A stretch of 64,000 nt of DNA from Celerinatantimonas diazotrophica (GTDB taxonomy: Bacteria > Pseudomonadota > Gammaproteobacteria > Enterobacterales > Celerinatantimonadaceae): assembly GCF_004339545.1 (NCBI RefSeq), contig NZ_SMGD01000012.1, positions 558,001 to 622,000 on the forward strand, written 5' to 3'. The notes under the pieces are model-generated. The model saw only the letters and a program-made list of their open reading frames with translations, ran no database searches and was not told the DNA's origin. This document shows positions 10,477 to 19,936 of this stretch, in pieces. Each line of letters begins with the position of its first letter. Within the stretch, counting starts at the first letter, position 1. The position numbers and the translations under genes are program-made.

Positions 10477-10739
10477 GGGACTGTTGACCTTTGGTGGTTG
10501 AATTTTGTTCAAATTAAACGCATTTTGAACGCGGCGCCCCCTGTGTCGCTTAATGAGTTAAGCAAGCAGGGGGCAACAAAGTTCAGGATGCGTTTAAATG
10601 AACCCCAAGGGCAGTATCTGAGAGGAATTGATCCAGCGTTAAACGTTCTTTGTGGAGAATAACTACACGGCACAACGTTTGCCTTGCCTAAATCCCTCTC
10701 AGATTTCTGCAAAACTAATCACAAAAGATCAACAGTCCC
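10477..10739 (+). mobile_element. 263-bp MITE-like element, copy 1
   Basis: The element starts GGGACTGTTGACCTTT and ends with the imperfect reverse complement, AAAGATCAACAGTCCC; similarity of the ends extends for about 30 bp. It is flanked on both sides by TA (10475-10476 and 10740-10741), consistent with a 2-bp target duplication. Inside is a strong hairpin with arms GCCCCCTG (10536-10543) and CAGGGGGC (10567-10574), and a second pair, CTGAGAGG and CCTCTCAG. There is no transposase, so it must be moved in trans. A nearly identical copy lies inverted at 39818-40079. Its last base is the third base of the stop codon of the neighbouring dehydratase-like gene. Confidence 0.85.
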
Positions 10740-11743
10740 TAGGTACTTTCGCTAAATTCACCCGTTTCTAGAGCCGATAAATGGTAAGCCTTTTGGATTT
10801 CAGTATAAGAAGCGTTCGCACCACTAAATTGCAACACAACATTTTTCCCCGCTAAACGTTCTTTTAATTTCCAGGCTGCCATAAGAGTTGAACTCCCAGC
10901 ACCTTCGACCATGTTATGTGTGTAATGCGCCGCTAAAGCAATTCCCCGAAGTATTTCTTCTTCCTCAAGTAAAATGAAGTCGGTTAGGGTGTTTTTATAA
11001 ATATTAAATGTGGTTTCATATGCGGAACCGGTTGCAAATCCACCCGCAAATGTTTTATTAGCACGTGTACAAATCGCTTTGGTTTTCCATGAAAAATAGG
11101 CTGCATTGGATGCCTGAGCTTGAACGGCATAAATTTCAATTTCTGGCTTTAAGGCTTTCATCGTTGTGATAGCGGCGGCGACTTCACTGCCTCCACCTAA
11201 AGGAAGAATGATTGCGTCAATATCAGGTAACTTTTCAATTATCTCTAGAAATTCGGTGCCGACACCGTTGATAAGTAACGGTTCATTGGCTGGATGAACA
11301 TAGTAATATCCTCTTTCTTCATTGAGCCTTGCTACAACTTGAGCGGCTTCGTCAAAGTTATTTCCTGCTTCAATCACATCGGCCCCCGTATCTTTAATTA
11401 GTTGTATTTTGGCGGGATTGGTATTGTTAGGCACGACAATCACTGATGGAATATTAAATAATTTTGCTGATGTCCCCACAGAGAGTCCATGACTTCCAGT
11501 GGAAAAAGTAACCACGCCTTTGATTTGGCGGCGTTTTATATGAGACATGATATTGATTCCCCCACGAATTTTAAAACTGCCTGTCGGGTTATGATTTTCG
11601 TGTTTAATAGATATATTGCAGTTTAGATATCGACTTAGATTTTCATATCGAATTAATGGCGATGGTGAAAAATATTGAGATATTGTTGATCTTGCTTTTA
11701 ACGTTTCAAGCAGTGATATTGGGTAATGTTTTAAACTTTCCAT
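10739..11743 (-). CDS. Serine/threonine dehydratase-like PLP enzyme (fold type II)
   Basis: The 334-residue protein belongs to the tryptophan-synthase-beta PLP superfamily and most resembles threonine/serine dehydratases and diaminopropionate- or hydroxyaspartate-acting relatives. The PLP lysine is in NPTGSFKIRGG near residue 48, the substrate/PLP loop is STGSHG near residue 77, and the phosphate loop is LPLGGGSEVAAA near residue 180. There is no C-terminal ACT regulatory domain, so it is a catabolic type. ATG 11743 is preferred over the upstream TTG because AAAGG lies about 9 bases upstream. It is divergent from a MocR-type regulator that probably controls it. The MITE supplies the final base of its TAG stop; without the element the site would read TAA, so the protein is unchanged. 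The substrate is unknown. Confidence 0.85.
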   Translation of the reverse strand: MESLKHYPISLLETLKARSTISQYFSPSPLIRYENLSRYLNCNISIKHENHNPTGSFKIRGGINIMSHIKRRQIKGVVTFSTGSHGLSVGTSAKLFNIPSVIVVPNNTNPAKIQLIKDTGADVIEAGNNFDEAAQVVARLNEERGYYYVHPANEPLLINGVGTEFLEIIEKLPDIDAIILPLGGGSEVAAAITTMKALKPEIEIYAVQAQASNAAYFSWKTKAICTRANKTFAGGFATGSAYETTFNIYKNTLTDFILLEEEEILRGIALAAHYTHNMVEGAGSSTLMAAWKLKERLAGKNVVLQFSGANASYTEIQKAYHLSALETGEFSEST

Positions 11744-11860
11744 AGCAAGAACCTTTAAATTGTATCGGTACAATAATTGAAAATTAGTTGATAATTCTTT
11801 TAAAAATGTGTTTTGATGGTATCAGTAGATCGATATATGAACAAAAGGTTTATTGTCACC

Positions 11861-13252
11861 ATGACAATTTTAAAGATGGGAATATCAAAGAATGATTCAA
11901 GAGCAATTTACAAACAGGTTGCTGATCAATTATCGGTTCAGATTGAGGAGGGATTATTAAAACCAAATGAAAAATTACCAACACACCGGGCATTAGCCGA
12001 TAAGTTACAAGTAACCGTCGGGACAATTACTCGAGCTTATGCAGAGGCAGAACGACGAGGTTTAGTTGAAGCTAGAGTCGGATCTGGAACTTATGTTGTT
12101 GATAAAAAGAAAGTATATTGGGAATTTCAACATAGTACGGCTGAGCAAATTAAAATATGTAATTTTGGATATAATATGCCGCCCTCCGTTGGACAAAGTG
12201 ACAAAGTAAAAAAAGCGATGCAGGTTTTGTCGGAATCTTCGATTCCTCTTAATGAATTTTTAGCTTATCAAAAACCTGAAGGTATTGAATCTCATCGTAA
12301 AATTGTTGCTCAATGGTTGCAGGATCATGGCCGCAAGATAGACCCAGATAGACTCCTGTTTACCTCAGGAGTACAACACGGGATACAAATGGTTTTTGAT
12401 GCCTTCACGGATGTAGGGGATACCATTTTAACCGAAAAATTAACTTATCCTGGACTTTTTAGCTTGTCTCGACGCAAAAAGCTTAATTTAAGAGGGGTTG
12501 AAATGGATGAAGAAGGGATTATTCCCAAATCTCTGGATGCAGCATGTCAGCACTATCAACCTCGTTTTTTATATGTAATCCCTACGCTGCAAAACCCAAC
12601 GACATCCACTATGTCAGCACTTCGTCGACAAGAAATAATTTCTATATGCGAAAAATATAATGTTCTGATTATTGAAGATGATGTTAATGGGTTATTACCT
12701 GACAATTTACCAGAGCCTTTGGTGAACCTAGATCCAGAACGTGTATTACATTTAGGGTCTTTTTCGAAGTATTTTGCTCCCGGACTGAGAGTGGGTTATA
12801 TACAATCACCTCACGCATTACATTCTCGTTTAAAGATGACATTAAAAGACCATAGTTGGATGCTAAGTCCATTACTCTCAGGTCTTATATGTGAACTTAT
12901 TTGTTCAAAAAATTTAGATTGGATTTTGGATAAAATAAGGCATGAAGTGGCCCAAAGAGCGCAAATAGCGTTGAATATATTACAGAGATGTGTGCTTAAA
13001 TATCAACACGGTGGCTTCCATATATGGCTTTCTTTACCCGACACTTGGCGTTTAAGTGACTTTATTCATGCCGCAGAGCAAAGAGGTGTCGTTGTAAAAT
13101 CAGCGGAGAATTTCACATTACCAGCCGGGACAGTGACGCCAGCAATAAGAGTATCGATAGGGTGTCCTAGTAACAGAAAACAAATGATGCAAGGACTAAC
13201 AATTTTAAAAGAGTTATTAAAATTAAATACTCCGTGTGATTTTGCCTTGTAA
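11861..13252 (+). CDS. MocR-family regulator (GntR helix-turn-helix fused to aminotransferase-like domain)
   Basis: An N-terminal GntR winged helix (SRAIYKQVADQLSVQIEEG, then LPTHRALADKLQVTVGTI) is joined by a linker to a fold-type-I aminotransferase domain. The PLP-binding lysine is present in GSFSKYFAPGLRVGY, and IIEDDVNG supplies the pyridine-contacting Asp. MocR proteins sense PLP or its amino-acid adducts and control nearby PLP or amino-acid genes. This gene diverges from the dehydratase-like gene, with 117 bp between the preferred starts, so that gene is the likely target. The frame is open from 11813; ATGs at 11837, 11861 and 11876 are all possible. I chose 11861 without strong ribosome-binding evidence. 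The protein is about 463 residues. Confidence 0.9.
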   Translation: MTILKMGISKNDSRAIYKQVADQLSVQIEEGLLKPNEKLPTHRALADKLQVTVGTITRAYAEAERRGLVEARVGSGTYVVDKKKVYWEFQHSTAEQIKICNFGYNMPPSVGQSDKVKKAMQVLSESSIPLNEFLAYQKPEGIESHRKIVAQWLQDHGRKIDPDRLLFTSGVQHGIQMVFDAFTDVGDTILTEKLTYPGLFSLSRRKKLNLRGVEMDEEGIIPKSLDAACQHYQPRFLYVIPTLQNPTTSTMSALRRQEIISICEKYNVLIIEDDVNGLLPDNLPEPLVNLDPERVLHLGSFSKYFAPGLRVGYIQSPHALHSRLKMTLKDHSWMLSPLLSGLICELICSKNLDWILDKIRHEVAQRAQIALNILQRCVLKYQHGGFHIWLSLPDTWRLSDFIHAAEQRGVVVKSAENFTLPAGTVTPAIRVSIGCPSNRKQMMQGLTILKELLKLNTPCDFAL

Positions 13253-13388
13253 ATGGTGGTATTTGTGCTGACGAGTGTCGAATCTCTGCAGTAGGCTTAT
13301 TGTATACTGCGCCAATTATCGCCCCAATCGTGTAATGACTCCCGTAGTCATTATAATTATGAAGCGGTTACGAACGATTCATCCTCTA

Positions 13389-13418
13389 AACAAGTGAGCC
13401 ACTTGGCTCACTTGTTTG
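13389..13418. terminator. Bidirectional terminator between convergent genes
   Basis: A perfect 14-bp inverted repeat (13389-13402 and 13405-13418) runs from AAACAAGTGAGCCA to its reverse complement. It sits between the MocR gene and the convergent NCS1 permease gene. Terminal A and T residues give a short U-run on either strand. Confidence 0.85.
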
Positions 13419-13476
13419 ACTGAAGACATTTAGATGAACTCAGTGGTTTTATCGATTAGCTGAGAAACATTGGAAT

Positions 13477-15012
13477 TTACTTTGCTACCCATTGTTCTTG
13501 CCCGTCTGGTATCTCACTATTTGAATCGCTCGGATTACTGTAAGGATGAGCGATTTTCATAACATAGGTAAGAACGTAGTAAATACTTGCACCAACAAAC
13601 ATTGACACGATAACCCCAAGATTAGCGGTAGCGAATACACTATGTCTTGCATTTTCTGTCAGTAAAAAACCGACTAAGTGCGCAATGTATGGATCTCCTG
13701 AAGTGATCAGCCCGGCACCGATAATGGCCGCTAAACCAAGAGAAATAAGTGCGGTCCAGCGCCCATTACATCCACCCATACCTGCTTTATTTGCCAAGTT
13801 AATATTCCAGCCCAAATCACGCTGGCGTTTAAAATCGACGAGTTGAATCGCGCCCATAGGACCTATGACGACGGCAATGGAGGCGAGAAACGATTGAAAT
13901 GTGGCTAAGAACGAGTTCGATATAAACATCAGATAAAAAGCGCCAAAGCCAATAATTAACGCATTGATGGCCGTTGTGACCGCTCGGCTGGCAGGAATCC
14001 CTAATGCCAGTAAGGCAAGGCCTGAGCTATAGACGCCAGTTATCGCGGCAGAAAGTAATGAAATAATGATGACGATGGAGAATGGAATATAGAACCAAAA
14101 TGGCAGTAGATCTGTCAGCGCTTCGATCGGCGCACTAGCGGCCGCAGAACTTAATGCTGAGTTACTATCAGCGAGAAAAACGCCAAGAACTAACAAAATA
14201 CTAACGGGCAGGGAAATACCACCGGTTGTCCAGAAAATTACTTTTGATGCGGGTGTTTTACGTGGCAGATAACGCGCAAAATCACCGCCATAGTTAAGGA
14301 AACCTAGACCGACCATCGTCATCGCCATAACGATTCCACCAATGTAAGTCAGTAAATCTCCGGATTTAGCATGACCAAGCGCCTGCCAGTGGATGTGTGG
14401 CAAAATAAGAGCAATAAAAATAAGGCTCATAAATCCAGTGATCCATGCGATGTATTTTTCTACTTTCATGATCAACTGGTGTCCATAAATGGCCACAGCC
14501 ATCGTGAGCGCAAGGCTAATAATGAACCATCCGACAATGCAGAACAGCGTTGGTTTTCCATTAGTTAGGGCAAATGCTGCTGGCCAAAGCTTGGCAAACA
14601 AGTAAGCACCCGTCGTTGAGGCTAGGGTAATGATGGTAATTTTCCACCCCATATTGGATATATAGGCAAATAAAGTTGGAAACTTATTACCGTGGTAGCC
14701 AAAGCAAAAACGGGTTTGAGTGAGCGTGGGCAATCCAGTCCGTGGTCCTCCAACCGCTAAAATGCCAACGAGAAAACTAGAAATCAAATAACCGAGGATT
14801 CCGGCAGAAATTGATTGCCACACACTTAGCCCGAGCGAGTATACGTAGATCCCATAGGTCAGACCTAAAATTGAAACATTCCATGAAAACCAAATTGGAA
14901 AGAGTCCTGAAGGTTTTCCATAGCGATCCGCCTCGCTAACGGCATTGACACCGTTTGACTCGACCTTGATGGCACCTGATGTGGAATTAGGTGCAGATTG
15001 GGATTGTGTCAT
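13477..15012 (-). CDS. NCS1-family permease (nucleobase/nucleoside-like transporter)
   Basis: The product is about 511 residues with some twelve membrane segments and belongs to the nucleobase:cation symporter-1 family, whose members import cytosine, uracil, allantoin, hydantoins, thiamine or nucleosides. Visible features are the ADRYGKPSGLFPIWFSWN entry segment, GGPRTGLPTLTQTRFCFG in the TM2-TM3 region, and FLNYGGDFARYLPRKTPAS. ATG 15012 is preferred over ATG 15021 because GAGG directly precedes the latter and is 9 bases from the former. It lies 20 bp downstream of the DeoD-like gene and is probably co-transcribed, so its substrate is likely a nucleoside or base used by that enzyme. Exact specificity cannot be read from sequence. 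Confidence 0.88.
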   Translation of the reverse strand: MTQSQSAPNSTSGAIKVESNGVNAVSEADRYGKPSGLFPIWFSWNVSILGLTYGIYVYSLGLSVWQSISAGILGYLISSFLVGILAVGGPRTGLPTLTQTRFCFGYHGNKFPTLFAYISNMGWKITIITLASTTGAYLFAKLWPAAFALTNGKPTLFCIVGWFIISLALTMAVAIYGHQLIMKVEKYIAWITGFMSLIFIALILPHIHWQALGHAKSGDLLTYIGGIVMAMTMVGLGFLNYGGDFARYLPRKTPASKVIFWTTGGISLPVSILLVLGVFLADSNSALSSAAASAPIEALTDLLPFWFYIPFSIVIIISLLSAAITGVYSSGLALLALGIPASRAVTTAINALIIGFGAFYLMFISNSFLATFQSFLASIAVVIGPMGAIQLVDFKRQRDLGWNINLANKAGMGGCNGRWTALISLGLAAIIGAGLITSGDPYIAHLVGFLLTENARHSVFATANLGVIVSMFVGASIYYVLTYVMKIAHPYSNPSDSNSEIPDGQEQWVAK

Positions 15013-15032
15013 GAGAATCATCCTCTGATAAA

Positions 15033-15746
15033 TTAAGAATCAATTAGCGTTGCGGTGACCAAAGCCAGTTTAATCATTTGATTCATGGTCTTGTCATACT
15101 CTTCAGCGCTTACCGGCTCTGCGCTGATACTATGAACACTCGCGGTTAAAATGCTGAGAGCTTTGGCTCGATATTGTGCCGCAATGGTATAGAGTGCTGA
15201 GGTTTCCATTTCAACTGCAAGAATGTGCATCTTTCTGAGTGCAGGGAGCATCGCTTCTGGCTTGTCATACAACAGGTCATTGGTAAACGTATTGCCAAAA
15301 TGCGCGCCTATCTTCTCATTTTGCGCCGCTTGCCAGCAGTAGCGTAGTAAATCGAAATCAGCAACTGCCGCGTAGTCGTAACCTGAGAAACGCTCACGAT
15401 TGACAGATGATGAGGTCCCAGCTCCCGTAGCGACGATCACATTCCGGATATCGACTGAATCATCGACTGCGCCGCATGTGCCGACTCGAATCAGGTTTTT
15501 TACACCAAATTCGTTGATCAATTCATGAGCATAAATGGAGATAGATGGAATCCCCATGCCGTGCGACATCACAGAGACACGTTGTTCTTGGTACCAACCA
15601 GTAAAGCCAAACATATTGCGTGTATCGCAGACTCTGATGGAATCCGATAAGTAAGTTTGAGCAATATACTGCGCTCGTAGTGGATCTCCTGGCATAATCA
15701 CCGTGTCGGCAAAGTCACCAGGCTTGGCATTAATGTGTGGGGTCAT
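15033..15746 (-). CDS. DeoD-type nucleoside phosphorylase with altered catalytic pair
   Basis: The 237-residue protein aligns throughout with hexameric DeoD: the TPHINAKPGDFAD N-terminus (His4), MPGDPLRA (Gly20, Arg24), the arginine before FGFTG (Arg43), IRVGTCGA (Arg87) and AVEMETSALY (Glu179, Met180, Glu181). The phosphate and ribose sites are therefore intact. In E. coli DeoD the base is protonated by Asp204 in the SDH motif, helped by Arg217. Here the motif reads TASVHS, so Asp204 is Val, and Arg217 aligns with Tyr. Natural purine nucleosides are therefore doubtful substrates. It is the first gene of a unit with an NCS1 permease and diverges from a YeiL-like regulator. It is either a phosphorylase for an unusual nucleoside or a nonstandard paralogue. 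Confidence 0.85.
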   Translation of the reverse strand: MTPHINAKPGDFADTVIMPGDPLRAQYIAQTYLSDSIRVCDTRNMFGFTGWYQEQRVSVMSHGMGIPSISIYAHELINEFGVKNLIRVGTCGAVDDSVDIRNVIVATGAGTSSSVNRERFSGYDYAAVADFDLLRYCWQAAQNEKIGAHFGNTFTNDLLYDKPEAMLPALRKMHILAVEMETSALYTIAAQYRAKALSILTASVHSISAEPVSAEEYDKTMNQMIKLALVTATLIDS

Positions 15747-15933
15747 TTACAAATCTCTTGGTCAGTGATGCCACCTAAAATACAAACCATCACAGCACAA
15801 CAAAAAAGCAAATGTCCGACTATGCAAGAGGCAGTTCACAAAAATGTGTTTTACCCAATAAGGATAATGTTTCTGTTGGTGCTTAACTGTAAATAACTTT
15901 TTGATTTAATTTATATTATTTGATTTTTTTCGA

Positions 15934-15959
15934 ACCTATATAAAACAATACTTATAGGT
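15934..15959. promoter_or_regulatory. Inverted repeat between the deoD-like and YeiL-like genes
   Basis: ACCTATA at 15934-15940 and TATAGGT at 15953-15959 are exact reverse complements, 12 bp apart, in the roughly 300-bp divergent promoter region. Spacing of about two helical turns between arm centres suits a dimeric regulator. The divergent Crp/Fnr-type protein is the obvious candidate ligand, but the motif is not the CRP or FNR consensus. Confidence 0.4.
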
Positions 15960-16046
15960 GAACTTCTTGATAAAATGCGGTGTGGGTATTTTTCAAAGTT
16001 CTTTGTTGAAATTTACTTCCCACTTCTTTTTTAGGAAGAATTTTCC

Positions 16047-16733
16047 ATGGATAAAATCCAAGAAATTGCCAAAAATGGTTACCAAATACTGTGCGATGTT
16101 ATAGCTGAAATGCCATTGAAAAATAAGGTATTTTATGCTGATGAGTTTATCCTTCAACAAGGCGAGGCAATCTCTTCGCTGTATTGGATTACACTTGGCG
16201 AATATAGCATGCATTACTGTGCAGATAATGGTAAAGCTTTTAGCTTAGGACAACGGTTTGTAAGTAACTGCATTATTGGTGAATTAGAATATTTAACGGA
16301 TACGCCGAGTCAGTTCTCCGTCGTTGCGAATGAGCAAATAGACGTCAAGATAATTCCTATCTCAGTTATGAATGATATCTTGTGTAGCCATGCGCAAGTT
16401 GGTATCTGGCTGAGCCATTTATTGTCCAAAAGCTACCAAATAGGTATGGCCAGAACTATGGAGCGCTTTCTGCAGCCGCTTGTATTTAATGTGGCCATGG
16501 ATATTTATCAGCGCTATCAGCAACACAAGCCTCTAATTGAGTTTAATCAAGTCTTTCGCGAAGCAGAAAGATTCGGATGCTCAGAACGTACTTATCGTCG
16601 TGCAATGACTCAGTTGATTGAAGAAAATTATATTCAGAAAAATTCTGATGGGTATTTTATTAGCGACTTAAATAAATTTGAATTGTTATTAAAGCATTCA
16701 TCCGTTGGATGTGATTCTCTATTATCAACTTGA
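16047..16733 (+). CDS. Crp/Fnr-family transcriptional regulator, YeiL-like
   Basis: A 228-residue protein with an N-terminal cyclic-nucleotide-binding-type jelly roll (LQQGEAISSLYWITLGEYSMHY, then CIIGELEYL near residue 77) and a C-terminal helix-turn-helix (EAERFGCSERTYRRAMTQLIEENYIQ near residues 170-200). The organisation and motifs resemble E. coli YeiL, which lies beside nucleoside uptake and hydrolysis genes. Here too the neighbour is a nucleoside-type unit (DeoD-like and NCS1), transcribed divergently, which supports a role in controlling it. Key cAMP-contacting residues of CRP are not evident, so the signal is probably different. AGGAAGA lies 8 bases before the ATG. Confidence 0.82.
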   Translation: MDKIQEIAKNGYQILCDVIAEMPLKNKVFYADEFILQQGEAISSLYWITLGEYSMHYCADNGKAFSLGQRFVSNCIIGELEYLTDTPSQFSVVANEQIDVKIIPISVMNDILCSHAQVGIWLSHLLSKSYQIGMARTMERFLQPLVFNVAMDIYQRYQQHKPLIEFNQVFREAERFGCSERTYRRAMTQLIEENYIQKNSDGYFISDLNKFELLLKHSSVGCDSLLST

Positions 16734-16942
16734 TTAAATGATTTGATGTCACAGTCAGTGTGAGTCGCAGCGACAATATTTTCAGCAAAAGTTGTAGCGC
16801 TCATCTTTCGTGAAGTCCCTAATAGTTTAAACAGTCTCTTATCTTGATTTATTTGCAACATCTATTTTGTGTTTAAATCAGATGAAGATAATGATTTATG
16901 TCGTGCTCTGAAATAGTTCATGTTCATAGCGCTAAGGATGAA

Positions 16943-17686: not shown

Positions 17687-19018
17687 TTAGGACATGAGCG
17701 CCAGCTTACGGTGTTGCCGTTGGCTATATATATACAGCGCAATACCTGGAATATATAAAATAGCGGACAATAGCAATGTGTTCACGCCAGCAGCATACAC
17801 CAGCCATAATCCGTAAATACTAGCCCCTAAGCCAATGAGCTTCAGTTTAAGCGATGCCCGGGTTTGTATCGTAATCTTTAATAGATAAGCACCGACTAAA
17901 AAGTATGGAATTAAAATCATCGAAGTTGAAACTAATACTAACGTGTTGTAACCCTTGCCTGTAAACATGACGAGTAGCAGACAGAACTGCACGGTTAAGT
18001 TGGTCAGTAGTAGTGAATTTTTCGGTGTTCCATTGGCATTCACTTTTGAGAATAACTTAGGGAAAGCCCCATACTGAGCCGCGGTAAAAGGGACTTCAGC
18101 AGAATACAAAATCCAACTGAGATACGATGCTAATACCGAAACAATAAGGCCTGCGCTGAGTAATACCTTACCCCAAGAGCCAGTGAGCATTGCCATTATC
18201 CCTGACATTGACGGGTTCGAGAGTGTCGCTAATTCGTTTCTGGGGACGATACCTAGTGAGAGTAATGAAATTAGAACATACAGGATCAGAGCGGTGATGA
18301 CGCCAAGATAGGTTGCTCGTCCAATGTCTTTTCGCTTTTTCGCCCGACTAGACAAAATGACTGCGCCTTCAATACCGGTGAACACCCAGAGTGTAATCAA
18401 CATCGTCCCTTTGACCTGAGTCATAAAGGATTGATCAAGGCTATGCCCTTGGGGATCAATATGAAATGTGTTGATATTAAACGAATAACCAACAACACCA
18501 ATAAAAATAAGCAGTGGGATACTCTTGGCCAGTGTCGCCAGTAAATTTATGAAGGCGGCTTGTGTGACACCTTTAAGAATAAGGCTGTACACTGACCATA
18601 ATATCAGTGATTCTCCCAGGAAGGCATATAGAGTCGTTCCTTTACCAAATATGATGGCACCCGGTGTATCGACAAAAGCCCCGAGAGCGGCAAAAGCAAC
18701 CACCAGATAACTCACGACTCCGATGGTGGCGCATAGCCAATATCCCCACGCAGAAAGAAACCCCGCTAAATCACCAAAACCTTCTTTGGCATAGATATAA
18801 ATGCCACCATCGAGCGTTGGTTTTAATCGAGATAGATGCAGAAAACACCCTGCGAGTAATAAGATCCCCAGGCCAGTGATCGTCCAGCCGACAATCATGG
18901 CATTCAAGCCGGCGACTTCAGCCATGTTCTGCGGGAGGCTAAAAACCCCACTACCGACCATCGAGCTGAAGACTAATGCCGTTAATGCGGTTAAACCAAT
19001 TCGATTCGCTTTGGACAT
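17687..19018 (-). CDS. APC-family amino acid/polyamine antiporter next to mmuM
   Basis: The 443-residue membrane protein begins with the APC signature ALTALVFSSMVGSGVFSLPQNMAEVAG and carries about twelve transmembrane segments, including LWVFTGIEGAVILSSRAKKRKDIG in the TM6 region. It resembles the basic amino acid/polyamine antiporter subfamily (ArcD, YcaM type) more than E. coli MmuP. Its start is 3 bp after the stop of the homocysteine methyltransferase gene, so the two are surely co-transcribed. By position it could import S-methylmethionine or another methyl donor, or exchange methionine; that role is inference. It ends with a basic tail. Confidence 0.85.
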   Translation of the reverse strand: MSKANRIGLTALTALVFSSMVGSGVFSLPQNMAEVAGLNAMIVGWTITGLGILLLAGCFLHLSRLKPTLDGGIYIYAKEGFGDLAGFLSAWGYWLCATIGVVSYLVVAFAALGAFVDTPGAIIFGKGTTLYAFLGESLILWSVYSLILKGVTQAAFINLLATLAKSIPLLIFIGVVGYSFNINTFHIDPQGHSLDQSFMTQVKGTMLITLWVFTGIEGAVILSSRAKKRKDIGRATYLGVITALILYVLISLLSLGIVPRNELATLSNPSMSGIMAMLTGSWGKVLLSAGLIVSVLASYLSWILYSAEVPFTAAQYGAFPKLFSKVNANGTPKNSLLLTNLTVQFCLLLVMFTGKGYNTLVLVSTSMILIPYFLVGAYLLKITIQTRASLKLKLIGLGASIYGLWLVYAAGVNTLLLSAILYIPGIALYIYSQRQHRKLALMS

Positions 19019-19021
19019 GAA

Positions 19022-19936
19022 TTAATCCCGAGCTTTAAAATGGTCACTTAACTTGGCAATGTGCTCGGGGCCGATGCCACAGCAACCGCCAATTACCGAT
19101 GCGCCGCAGGCGCGCCATTTGTCAGCCCAGGGTATATAGGACTCAGGGGTGAGGTCAGCGCGAAGCTCATCAAGCCCATCATTGGCCGTTGCATCTTTTG
19201 GCTGGGGAGGAAATGCATTGGCATACGCCCCTAGTCGGATCTCTGTTAAATTCAGTTTTTTTAAGGTATCCGCCGCCACGATTAATGCTTGTTCAATCAC
19301 TTCTGGTTGACAGCAGTTAAACAAGATTGCGCTGACACCCGCTTTAGCCATGGTGTTAACTGCTTCTTGAACGCTCTCCCCCGAGCGCAAGCATGGCTCT
19401 GAGGTTGGCTCTGAATCTTCAAGCGTAAAAGAGACCCAGAAAGGCTTTTCATCATCCGTTAGTTCTTTTACTAACCCCTTCAAGGCGAGAGATTCGGCAA
19501 TCAGGCTCTGTGTTTCTGCCAGCCAAAAATCAATCGGTGTTTTGAGACCTTCAATCAATGGTGTGGCAATATCGCGGACATGTTCTGCATCATAGAGGTC
19601 CGGGCGATACGAGCCAAATAGTGGGGGAAGTGAGCCTGCAACTTTAGCCTCGGTTCCTTGCGCAGCATCACGCGCGACTTGTCCAGATCGTTCAGCGAGC
19701 GCCAGAGCTTGCTCGGTAAAGCGCTTATCGCCGATGTGAAATGGGACTAACGAATAGCTATTGGTAGTAATGACCTGAGCACCACTTTGGATATAGTCTT
19801 GGTGAACGGTTTTGACAATCTCTGGTGTCTCAATCATTGCTAGGGCGGACCACTCTGGTTGACGAAAAGGAGCGCCTCGACGATTTAATTCTCGTCCCAT
19901 GCCACCGTCCAAGATGAGTACCGATTGTTCTGTCAT
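19022..19936 (-). CDS. mmuM: Homocysteine S-methyltransferase
   Basis: The 304-residue protein is a cobalamin-independent homocysteine methyltransferase of the MmuM/BHMT family, which makes methionine from homocysteine with S-methylmethionine or a related donor. It opens with LILDGGMGRELNRRGAPF. The zinc ligands are visible: a cysteine in LFNCCQPE near residue 210 and the cysteine pair in GGCCGIGPEHI near residue 288. It is first in a two-gene unit with an APC antiporter. A sequence resembling MetJ operator boxes lies about 20-40 bp upstream, which fits methionine control. The ATG at 19936 has only a weak ribosome binding site. Confidence 0.93.
   Translation of the reverse strand: MTEQSVLILDGGMGRELNRRGAPFRQPEWSALAMIETPEIVKTVHQDYIQSGAQVITTNSYSLVPFHIGDKRFTEQALALAERSGQVARDAAQGTEAKVAGSLPPLFGSYRPDLYDAEHVRDIATPLIEGLKTPIDFWLAETQSLIAESLALKGLVKELTDDEKPFWVSFTLEDSEPTSEPCLRSGESVQEAVNTMAKAGVSAILFNCCQPEVIEQALIVAADTLKKLNLTEIRLGAYANAFPPQPKDATANDGLDELRADLTPESYIPWADKWRACGASVIGGCCGIGPEHIAKLSDHFKARD

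Follow-up and report, generated by a model that had tools for sequence, protein, structure and literature searches.

Results

Within the 64,000 nucleotides of Celerinatantimonas diazotrophica DNA that we analysed (the window), a gene for a DeoD-fold nucleoside phosphorylase is accompanied by genes for an NCS1 permease and a YeiL-like regulator (Table 1). The earlier note on this DNA had placed the phosphorylase gene correctly at 15033-15746, and its strand is minus.

Table 1. Features of the phosphorylase locus. L033 is a second contig that carries the same three genes.
Feature	Position	Strand	Basis
DeoD-fold nucleoside phosphorylase (P0001), 237 aa; V204/Y217, also L159, S206, N156, T90	15033..15746	minus	intact frame, alignment, model
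NCS1 permease, 514 aa; separated by 11 bp from the phosphorylase gene upstream, probable operon	13477..15021	minus	PF02133; orthologue in L033
YeiL-like CRP/FNR-superfamily regulator, 228 aa; transcribed away from the phosphorylase gene	16047..16733	plus	PF00027; orthologue in L033
Divergent intergenic region, 300 bp; presumed promoters and operators	15747..16046	.	aligned with L033
GCAAATGTCCGACT, 14-mer; candidate operator/promoter element of the phosphorylase-permease operon	15808..15821	plus	identical in the L033 intergenic region

The phosphorylase P0001 resembles E. coli DeoD (the hexameric PNP, PNP-I) in fold, length, and phosphate and ribose site, with about 52% identity. Three alignments of P0001 with DeoD structures were free of gaps. 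An AlphaFold2 model of the monomer (pLDDT 92.5, pTM 0.92) superposed over residues 1-237 on residues 1-237 of E. coli PNP (3opv_A: Z 38.7, 1.3 A; 1ecp_A: Z 37.9, 1.4 A). In this overlay, which the earlier note had proposed as a check, the modelled V204 occupies the position of Asp204 and Y217 that of Arg217. Sequence alignment and superposition thus agree with the note that the S-D-H motif reads S-V-H and that Tyr replaces Arg217, and together they rule out a misaligned motif. The superposition matches also included 4tta, a 'double mutant' structure, presumably that of Asp204Ala/Arg217Ala. Besides V204 and Y217, the protein differs from E. coli DeoD by L159 for Phe159, S206 for Ile206, N156 for Ala156 and T90 for Ser90.

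Of the active-site residues checked, H4, G20, R24, R43, M64, R87, E179, M180, E181 and S203 are present, in line with the note, which had described phosphate and ribose binding as preserved. P0001 carries the set R24, R43, R87, S/T90, H4, M180 and E181 that characterizes DeoD, with Thr rather than Ser at position 90, as in 11 of 113 other homologues; it lacks the catalytic pair Asp204 and Arg217, of which the sister protein of L033 retains R217 next to V204. Among family models, P0001 passed the cut-offs of TIGR00107 deoD (289 bits versus 232) and PRK05819 (317 versus 230) and missed that of PRK13374 (323 versus 338). Another acid filling the position of Asp204, which the note had named as grounds for giving up its claim, was not seen in alignment or superposition. 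Eight positions are private to P0001 and its L033 sister, and the sole acid among them, D95, lies outside the base-site list given in PMC11275124.

The host genome encodes a separate DeoD (L002) with a normal Asp204. By eye its neighbourhood resembles what we take to be a deoA-deoB-deoD arrangement. Chance or decay as the origin of the altered site is ruled out by the intact frame, the conservation of the three genes and the constrained protein change detailed below. P0001 is a DeoD variant that is both rare and maintained.

We then compared the catalytic positions among 162 distinct homologues, a set that omits rows of the window's own genome and of L033/L145 and counts identical aligned sequences once. 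Position 204 was Asp in 160 of them, and the other two (one from L066, one from L112) aligned a gap with Asp in the next column; Asp204 was replaced in 0 of these 162. Arg occupied position 217 in 160 of the 162, the two exceptions being Lys in proteins of L066, and position 159 was Phe in 161 and Tyr in one. The only further V204 protein found was that of L033 (L145 is the same DNA), which keeps R217. Hence the V/Y pair, which the earlier note had proposed to seek in other proteins, is not a shared signature: the sister has V/R, R217Y occurred in the window protein alone, and what the two have in common is D204V.

These counts rest on searches with P0001 of differing depth. Of 151 relatives in the genome contigs, the best 80 were read. 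In the order, 5 of 394 genomes matched at E <= 1e-82, own genome included, a threshold that a more diverged member would escape. The family of G031 gave 157 of 329 genomes at E <= 1e-79, with residues read in 30 loci, and the phylum 56 of 398 at E <= 1e-60, with residues read in the retrieved loci only. The plasmid collection yielded 67 records, of which one, from E. coli, was read for residues; 27 phage records matched and lie outside the reading of residue 204, and the viral contigs searched held no relative. In the literature, as far as titles and abstract openings go and with few subscription journals covered, we found no report of a natural DeoD without Asp204. As a separate observation, L066 (Neobittarella) carries four consecutive DeoD-like genes, two of which encode Lys217 together with altered motifs around positions 203-206.

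The earlier note had cited, together with the phosphorylase, a private NCS1 permease and a YeiL-like regulator, and the same trio is indeed kept on L033, a 3,605-bp contig filed as Vibrio xiamenensis, while the host of the window has a normal DeoD besides. L033 carries the phosphorylase, the NCS1 permease and the divergent YeiL-like regulator with identities to the window proteins of about 80%, 85-86% and 72.5-73%, respectively, and its phosphorylase has V204, L159 and S206 in common with P0001. The owner of this contig is uncertain. L145, from genome G1051, is contained in the L033 DNA, and G1051 is listed with a contamination of 6. GC content is 47.1% in L033, whereas another stretch of its assembly, 18.3 kb long, has 43.4%. 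Tetranucleotide correlation does not discriminate, with 0.803 between L033 and that stretch and 0.795 between L033 and the window.

Between the two trios, pN and pS were 0.135 and 0.772 for the phosphorylase, 0.103 and 0.787 for the permease, and 0.176 and 0.795 for the regulator. Since synonymous sites are saturated (pS 0.77-0.80) against pN values of 0.10-0.18, the trio proteins have evolved under strong constraint. Because the V204 sister on L033 keeps R217, Asp was lost before Arg or independently of it. Three of the eight positions private to the pair (159, 204 and 206; absent from 113 homologues, a set that omits the uridine phosphorylase L003, the window duplicate L113, P0001 and L033) fall within the 11-residue purine-base site of PMC11275124 (hypergeometric P=0.0037). 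The enrichment weakened at looser cut-offs (P=0.0054 at 1%, 0.041 at 3% and 0.062 at 5%).

A tree of 33 de-duplicated rows (L036, the same DNA as L135, is absent from the set) placed the window protein and its L033 sister together with support of 100/100, within a clade of Asp204 enzymes supported at 99/97. The members of this clade come from Ferrimonas, Parashewanella, Vibrio sinaloensis and other genomes of the same order. The fork that puts the pair inside rather than beside the Asp204 members is weaker (91/84). The nearest relatives after L033 are Asp204 enzymes with 53-63% identity (Ferrimonas L034, Vibrio sinaloensis L035, L133, L134, L136, L146-L149 and L153), which, unlike the window protein, keep S-D-H, F159 and R217. 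Among the 12 clade rows outside the pair, of which L035 and L148 are identical, a YeiL-like gene was divergent from the phosphorylase gene in eight and convergent, with weak similarity, in two (L134, L153); none was found beside the remaining two (L045, L151). Beside the Asp204 clade members we found no window-type NCS1 gene, the flank covered being about 1.5 kb for loci of the G031 family. In the simplest history suggested by these sequences, a YeiL-like gene would already have accompanied a phosphorylase of normal type, with permease gain and acid loss afterwards. In Vibrio sinaloensis, a DUF3360 membrane protein (L035:5273-6727) is encoded near the Asp204 phosphorylase and the YeiL-like gene and is possibly an alternative permease of the cassette.

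The NCS1 assignment of the permease is clear at family level (PF02133, 94.8 bits versus a gathering threshold of 23.5), while its score with the TIGR00800 subfamily model stayed far below the cut-off (77.2 versus 353 bits). NCS1 permeases are best known as carriers of bases, hydantoins and vitamins, not of nucleosides. Close relatives of the window permease are rare: they occurred in 6 of 394 genomes of the order, own genome included, and only in the own genome among 369 genomes of the class and among 12 of the family (E <= 1e-40). The other five genomes of the order hold eight such genes. Five of the eight (L128-L132; 56-61% identity to the window permease) lie in operons with genes for a GntR regulator, an ADP-ribosylglycohydrolase (PF03747, an assignment run on L130) and a PfkB kinase. 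These five loci resemble YegUVW-type operons with an NCS1 permease and have a glycohydrolase-family gene where the window trio has the phosphorylase. Genes for an ADP-ribosylglycohydrolase and a PfkB kinase also accompany more distant permeases (26-32%) of Plesiomonas, Paraburkholderia, Photobacterium and Lactiplantibacillus. The plasmid collection contributed 11 permease records, and among five neighbourhoods examined there, those of Nonomuraea and Streptomyces showed no recognisable partner.

Because an enzyme acting on a glycosidic bond adjoins the carrier genes of its relatives, these neighbourhoods suggest that the window permease imports a riboside or other glycoside. Counting against riboside import, its closest relatives in sequence (65-67%), the remaining three of the eight genes (a single gene in L126 and two in tandem in L127), have no glycohydrolase neighbour and adjoin a gene for a protein of about 890 aa.

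The operons themselves deserve a brief description. The set of ADP-ribosylglycohydrolase, NCS1 permease, PfkB kinase and, usually, GntR recurs in L128-L132, L138, L139, L142 and L144, and its glycohydrolase is 40% identical to E. coli YegU. By analogy it is the putative counterpart of yegTUVW, with an NCS1 carrier replacing YegT; yegTUV of E. coli is described in PMC10819704 as having no established function. The proteins of about 890 aa (L126:5965-8661 and L127:1398-4064) are 51% identical to each other, and their genes share 13 and 1 bases, respectively, with the adjoining NCS1 genes of the window type. Neither had a Pfam match, and the L126 copy had no PDB match either. Since their sole NCBIfam match, to alpha-L-rhamnosidase, was partial and weak (34 and 17.5 versus 1,300 bits), we did not adopt a designation as glycosidases.

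As for the regulator, the description 'YeiL-like' in the earlier note stood as regards a relative in the CRP/FNR superfamily; with the model PRK10402, in turn, the protein scored 49.8 bits, below the cut-off of 180. The intergenic regions of the window and L033 match poorly overall (153 of 298 ungapped columns identical) apart from GCAAATGTCCGACT, which is found 62-75 bases upstream of the start of the phosphorylase gene. Its 11-base core AAATGTCCGAC was present in 4 of 174 loci (L001, L033, L113 and L145), all of them copies of the trio. Consensus scans of 13300-16900 gave no excess over shuffled sequence, with six promoter-like sites versus 9.3 in shuffles and three terminator-like sites versus 3.5.

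Discussion

Asp204 is regarded as the key residue for catalysis in hexameric PNPs. That Asp204 and Arg217 of the E. coli enzyme protonate N7, as the earlier note had said, is stated in PMC6193948 and PMC13057136. The laboratory mutant Asp204Ala/Arg217Ala of E. coli PNP (PMC6193948) has lost the same two catalytic positions as the window protein and serves as its chemical model, whereas the window protein is natural, has more changes in the base site and comes with its own permease and regulator. On adenosine the double mutant is about 400-fold less active (PMC6193948), and its activity on natural substrates is given as at the 0.1% level of the wild type (PMC13057136). With 7-methylguanosine, by contrast, it reached 44.2 versus 8.2 U/mg for the wild type when phosphate was varied and 29.2 versus 22.7 U/mg when the nucleoside was varied, that is, a 5-fold and an about 1.3-fold gain (PMC6193948).

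Against this background we favour, at a probability of roughly 45%, a salvage phosphorylase for a riboside that needs no N7 protonation, equipped with its own importer and regulator. P0001 would then be a working nucleoside phosphorylase of the hexameric type that has abandoned general-acid catalysis. It would bind ribose and phosphate in the DeoD manner and act on a leaving base that is already activated, normally through a positive ring charge, so that the C1'-N bond could break without N7 protonation to give ribose-1-phosphate and the base. The NCS1 permease would import the riboside, and the YeiL-like regulator would control the divergent promoter. For the proposal of the earlier note, salvage of a non-standard nucleoside or one with a good leaving group, the behaviour of the double mutant on cationic 7-methylguanosine offers a laboratory parallel (PMC6193948), and we consider that proposal supported in part.

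As substrate, 7-methylguanosine would fit best and nicotinamide riboside second. In the former case V204 may face the N7-methyl group, with O6 close to S206 and the 2-amino group close to N156; the placement of S206 and N156 follows from B. subtilis PNP, in which the 6-substituent contacts the residues equivalent to 204 and 206 and the 2-substituent contacts Ala156 (PMC3434127). Nicotinamide riboside is a non-typical substrate of E. coli DeoD, with a Km of 0.62 mM (quoted in PMC3923242). Several findings count against the favoured reading or its preferred substrate. F159L takes away an aromatic contact that would be expected to favour a cationic purine. N156 occurs in five of six Asp204 relatives as well, so it is older than the pair and no peculiarity of it. 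V204 is carried by two sequences only, one of them from the 3.6-kb contig whose owner is uncertain, and the sister on that contig keeps R217. Bolder still, and in our view doubtful, is the proposal that a DeoD enzyme gave up its general acid to become a natural phosphorylase devoted to ribosides that already carry a charge, either nicotinamide riboside or 7-methylguanosine derived from tRNA, rRNA or RNA caps. An importer and a regulator of its own would serve this enzyme, and nature would have repeated the laboratory D204A/R217A experiment.

Protonation of N7 would also be dispensable if the substrate were a non-purine or small-ring nucleoside, handled by a route like that of uridine phosphorylase that never used the acid here, with a convergent motif at 203-205. 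The host uridine phosphorylase-like protein L003 belongs to the same superfamily and, like the window protein, has Val at the Asp204 position; at the S-D-H position it reads I-V-N, the L033 sister S-V-N and the window protein S-V-H. Moreover, K162, which is absent at that position in 113 homologues, sits where the Q-E-R segment of L003 begins. This segment has a base-reading role in uridine phosphorylase, yet its 14 columns are missing from the window protein, which also scored far below the family cut-offs (TIGR01718: 112 versus 280 bits; PRK11178: 93.5 versus 262 bits). The low scores and the missing Q-x-R segment rule out membership in the uridine phosphorylases, and we consider the broader non-purine reading unlikely. 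A purine nucleoside phosphorylase of the ordinary kind, with lower speed or relaxed specificity, that takes its proton from water, Ser203 or His205 or prefers an easily protonated purine would explain why P0001 passes TIGR00107 and PRK05819 and keeps Ser203 with most purine-site residues. E. coli D204N, too, ribosylates N2,3-etheno-2-aminopurine about as well as the wild type (relative Vmax 30 versus 20), at an atypical nitrogen (PMC11477426). But the absence of any Asp204 replacement among the 162 homologues and the about 400-fold loss of the E. coli double mutant on adenosine (PMC6193948) speak against it, and a slow copy would be of little gain to a host with a normal DeoD; we regard this explanation as improbable.

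The enzyme could instead work in the synthetic direction, with the permease importing a free base such as nicotinamide or a methylated purine that is then ribosylated from ribose-1-phosphate. This would suit NCS1 carriers, which usually move bases, and synthesis of a pyridinium riboside would need no removal of an N7 proton. Weak synthesis of nicotinamide riboside from nicotinamide is described for E. coli XapA (PMC3923242). Five of the eight close permease relatives, however, belong to gene sets of catabolic appearance (GntR, ADP-ribosylglycohydrolase, PfkB kinase). Such sets suggest import and breakdown of a riboside and make the synthetic route distinctly improbable. Least probable is that P0001 binds nucleosides without any catalysis, perhaps as a sensor that works with the regulator. 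The window copy has lost both protonating residues, which would fit such a role, but it retains those phosphate and ribose residues that we checked, protein change is constrained, and phosphate-binding arginines would be superfluous for a mere base sensor.

If the favoured reading, a salvage phosphorylase without need for N7 protonation, is true, a maintained natural enzyme without Asp204 would mean that leaving-group activation has been separated in evolution from the rest of phosphorolysis. It would also supply a catalyst for nucleosides that are charged or hard to protonate, and would hint at a route to the use of methylated RNA nucleosides or pyridine ribosides. Automatic 'DeoD' labels may mask an altered catalytic site.

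Other genes in the window

Two further gene pairs lie close to the trio. At 10739-13252, a gene for a PLP-dependent dehydratase (threonine/hydroxyectoine dehydratase-like) is divergent from one for a MocR-type regulator, which is closest to EhuR (402 bits, below the cut-off of 480). On the minus strand at 17687-19936, a homocysteine S-methyltransferase gene is followed 3 bp on by a gene for a permease of the arginine-ornithine-antiporter type; by analogy, this pair could serve the use of S-methylmethionine.
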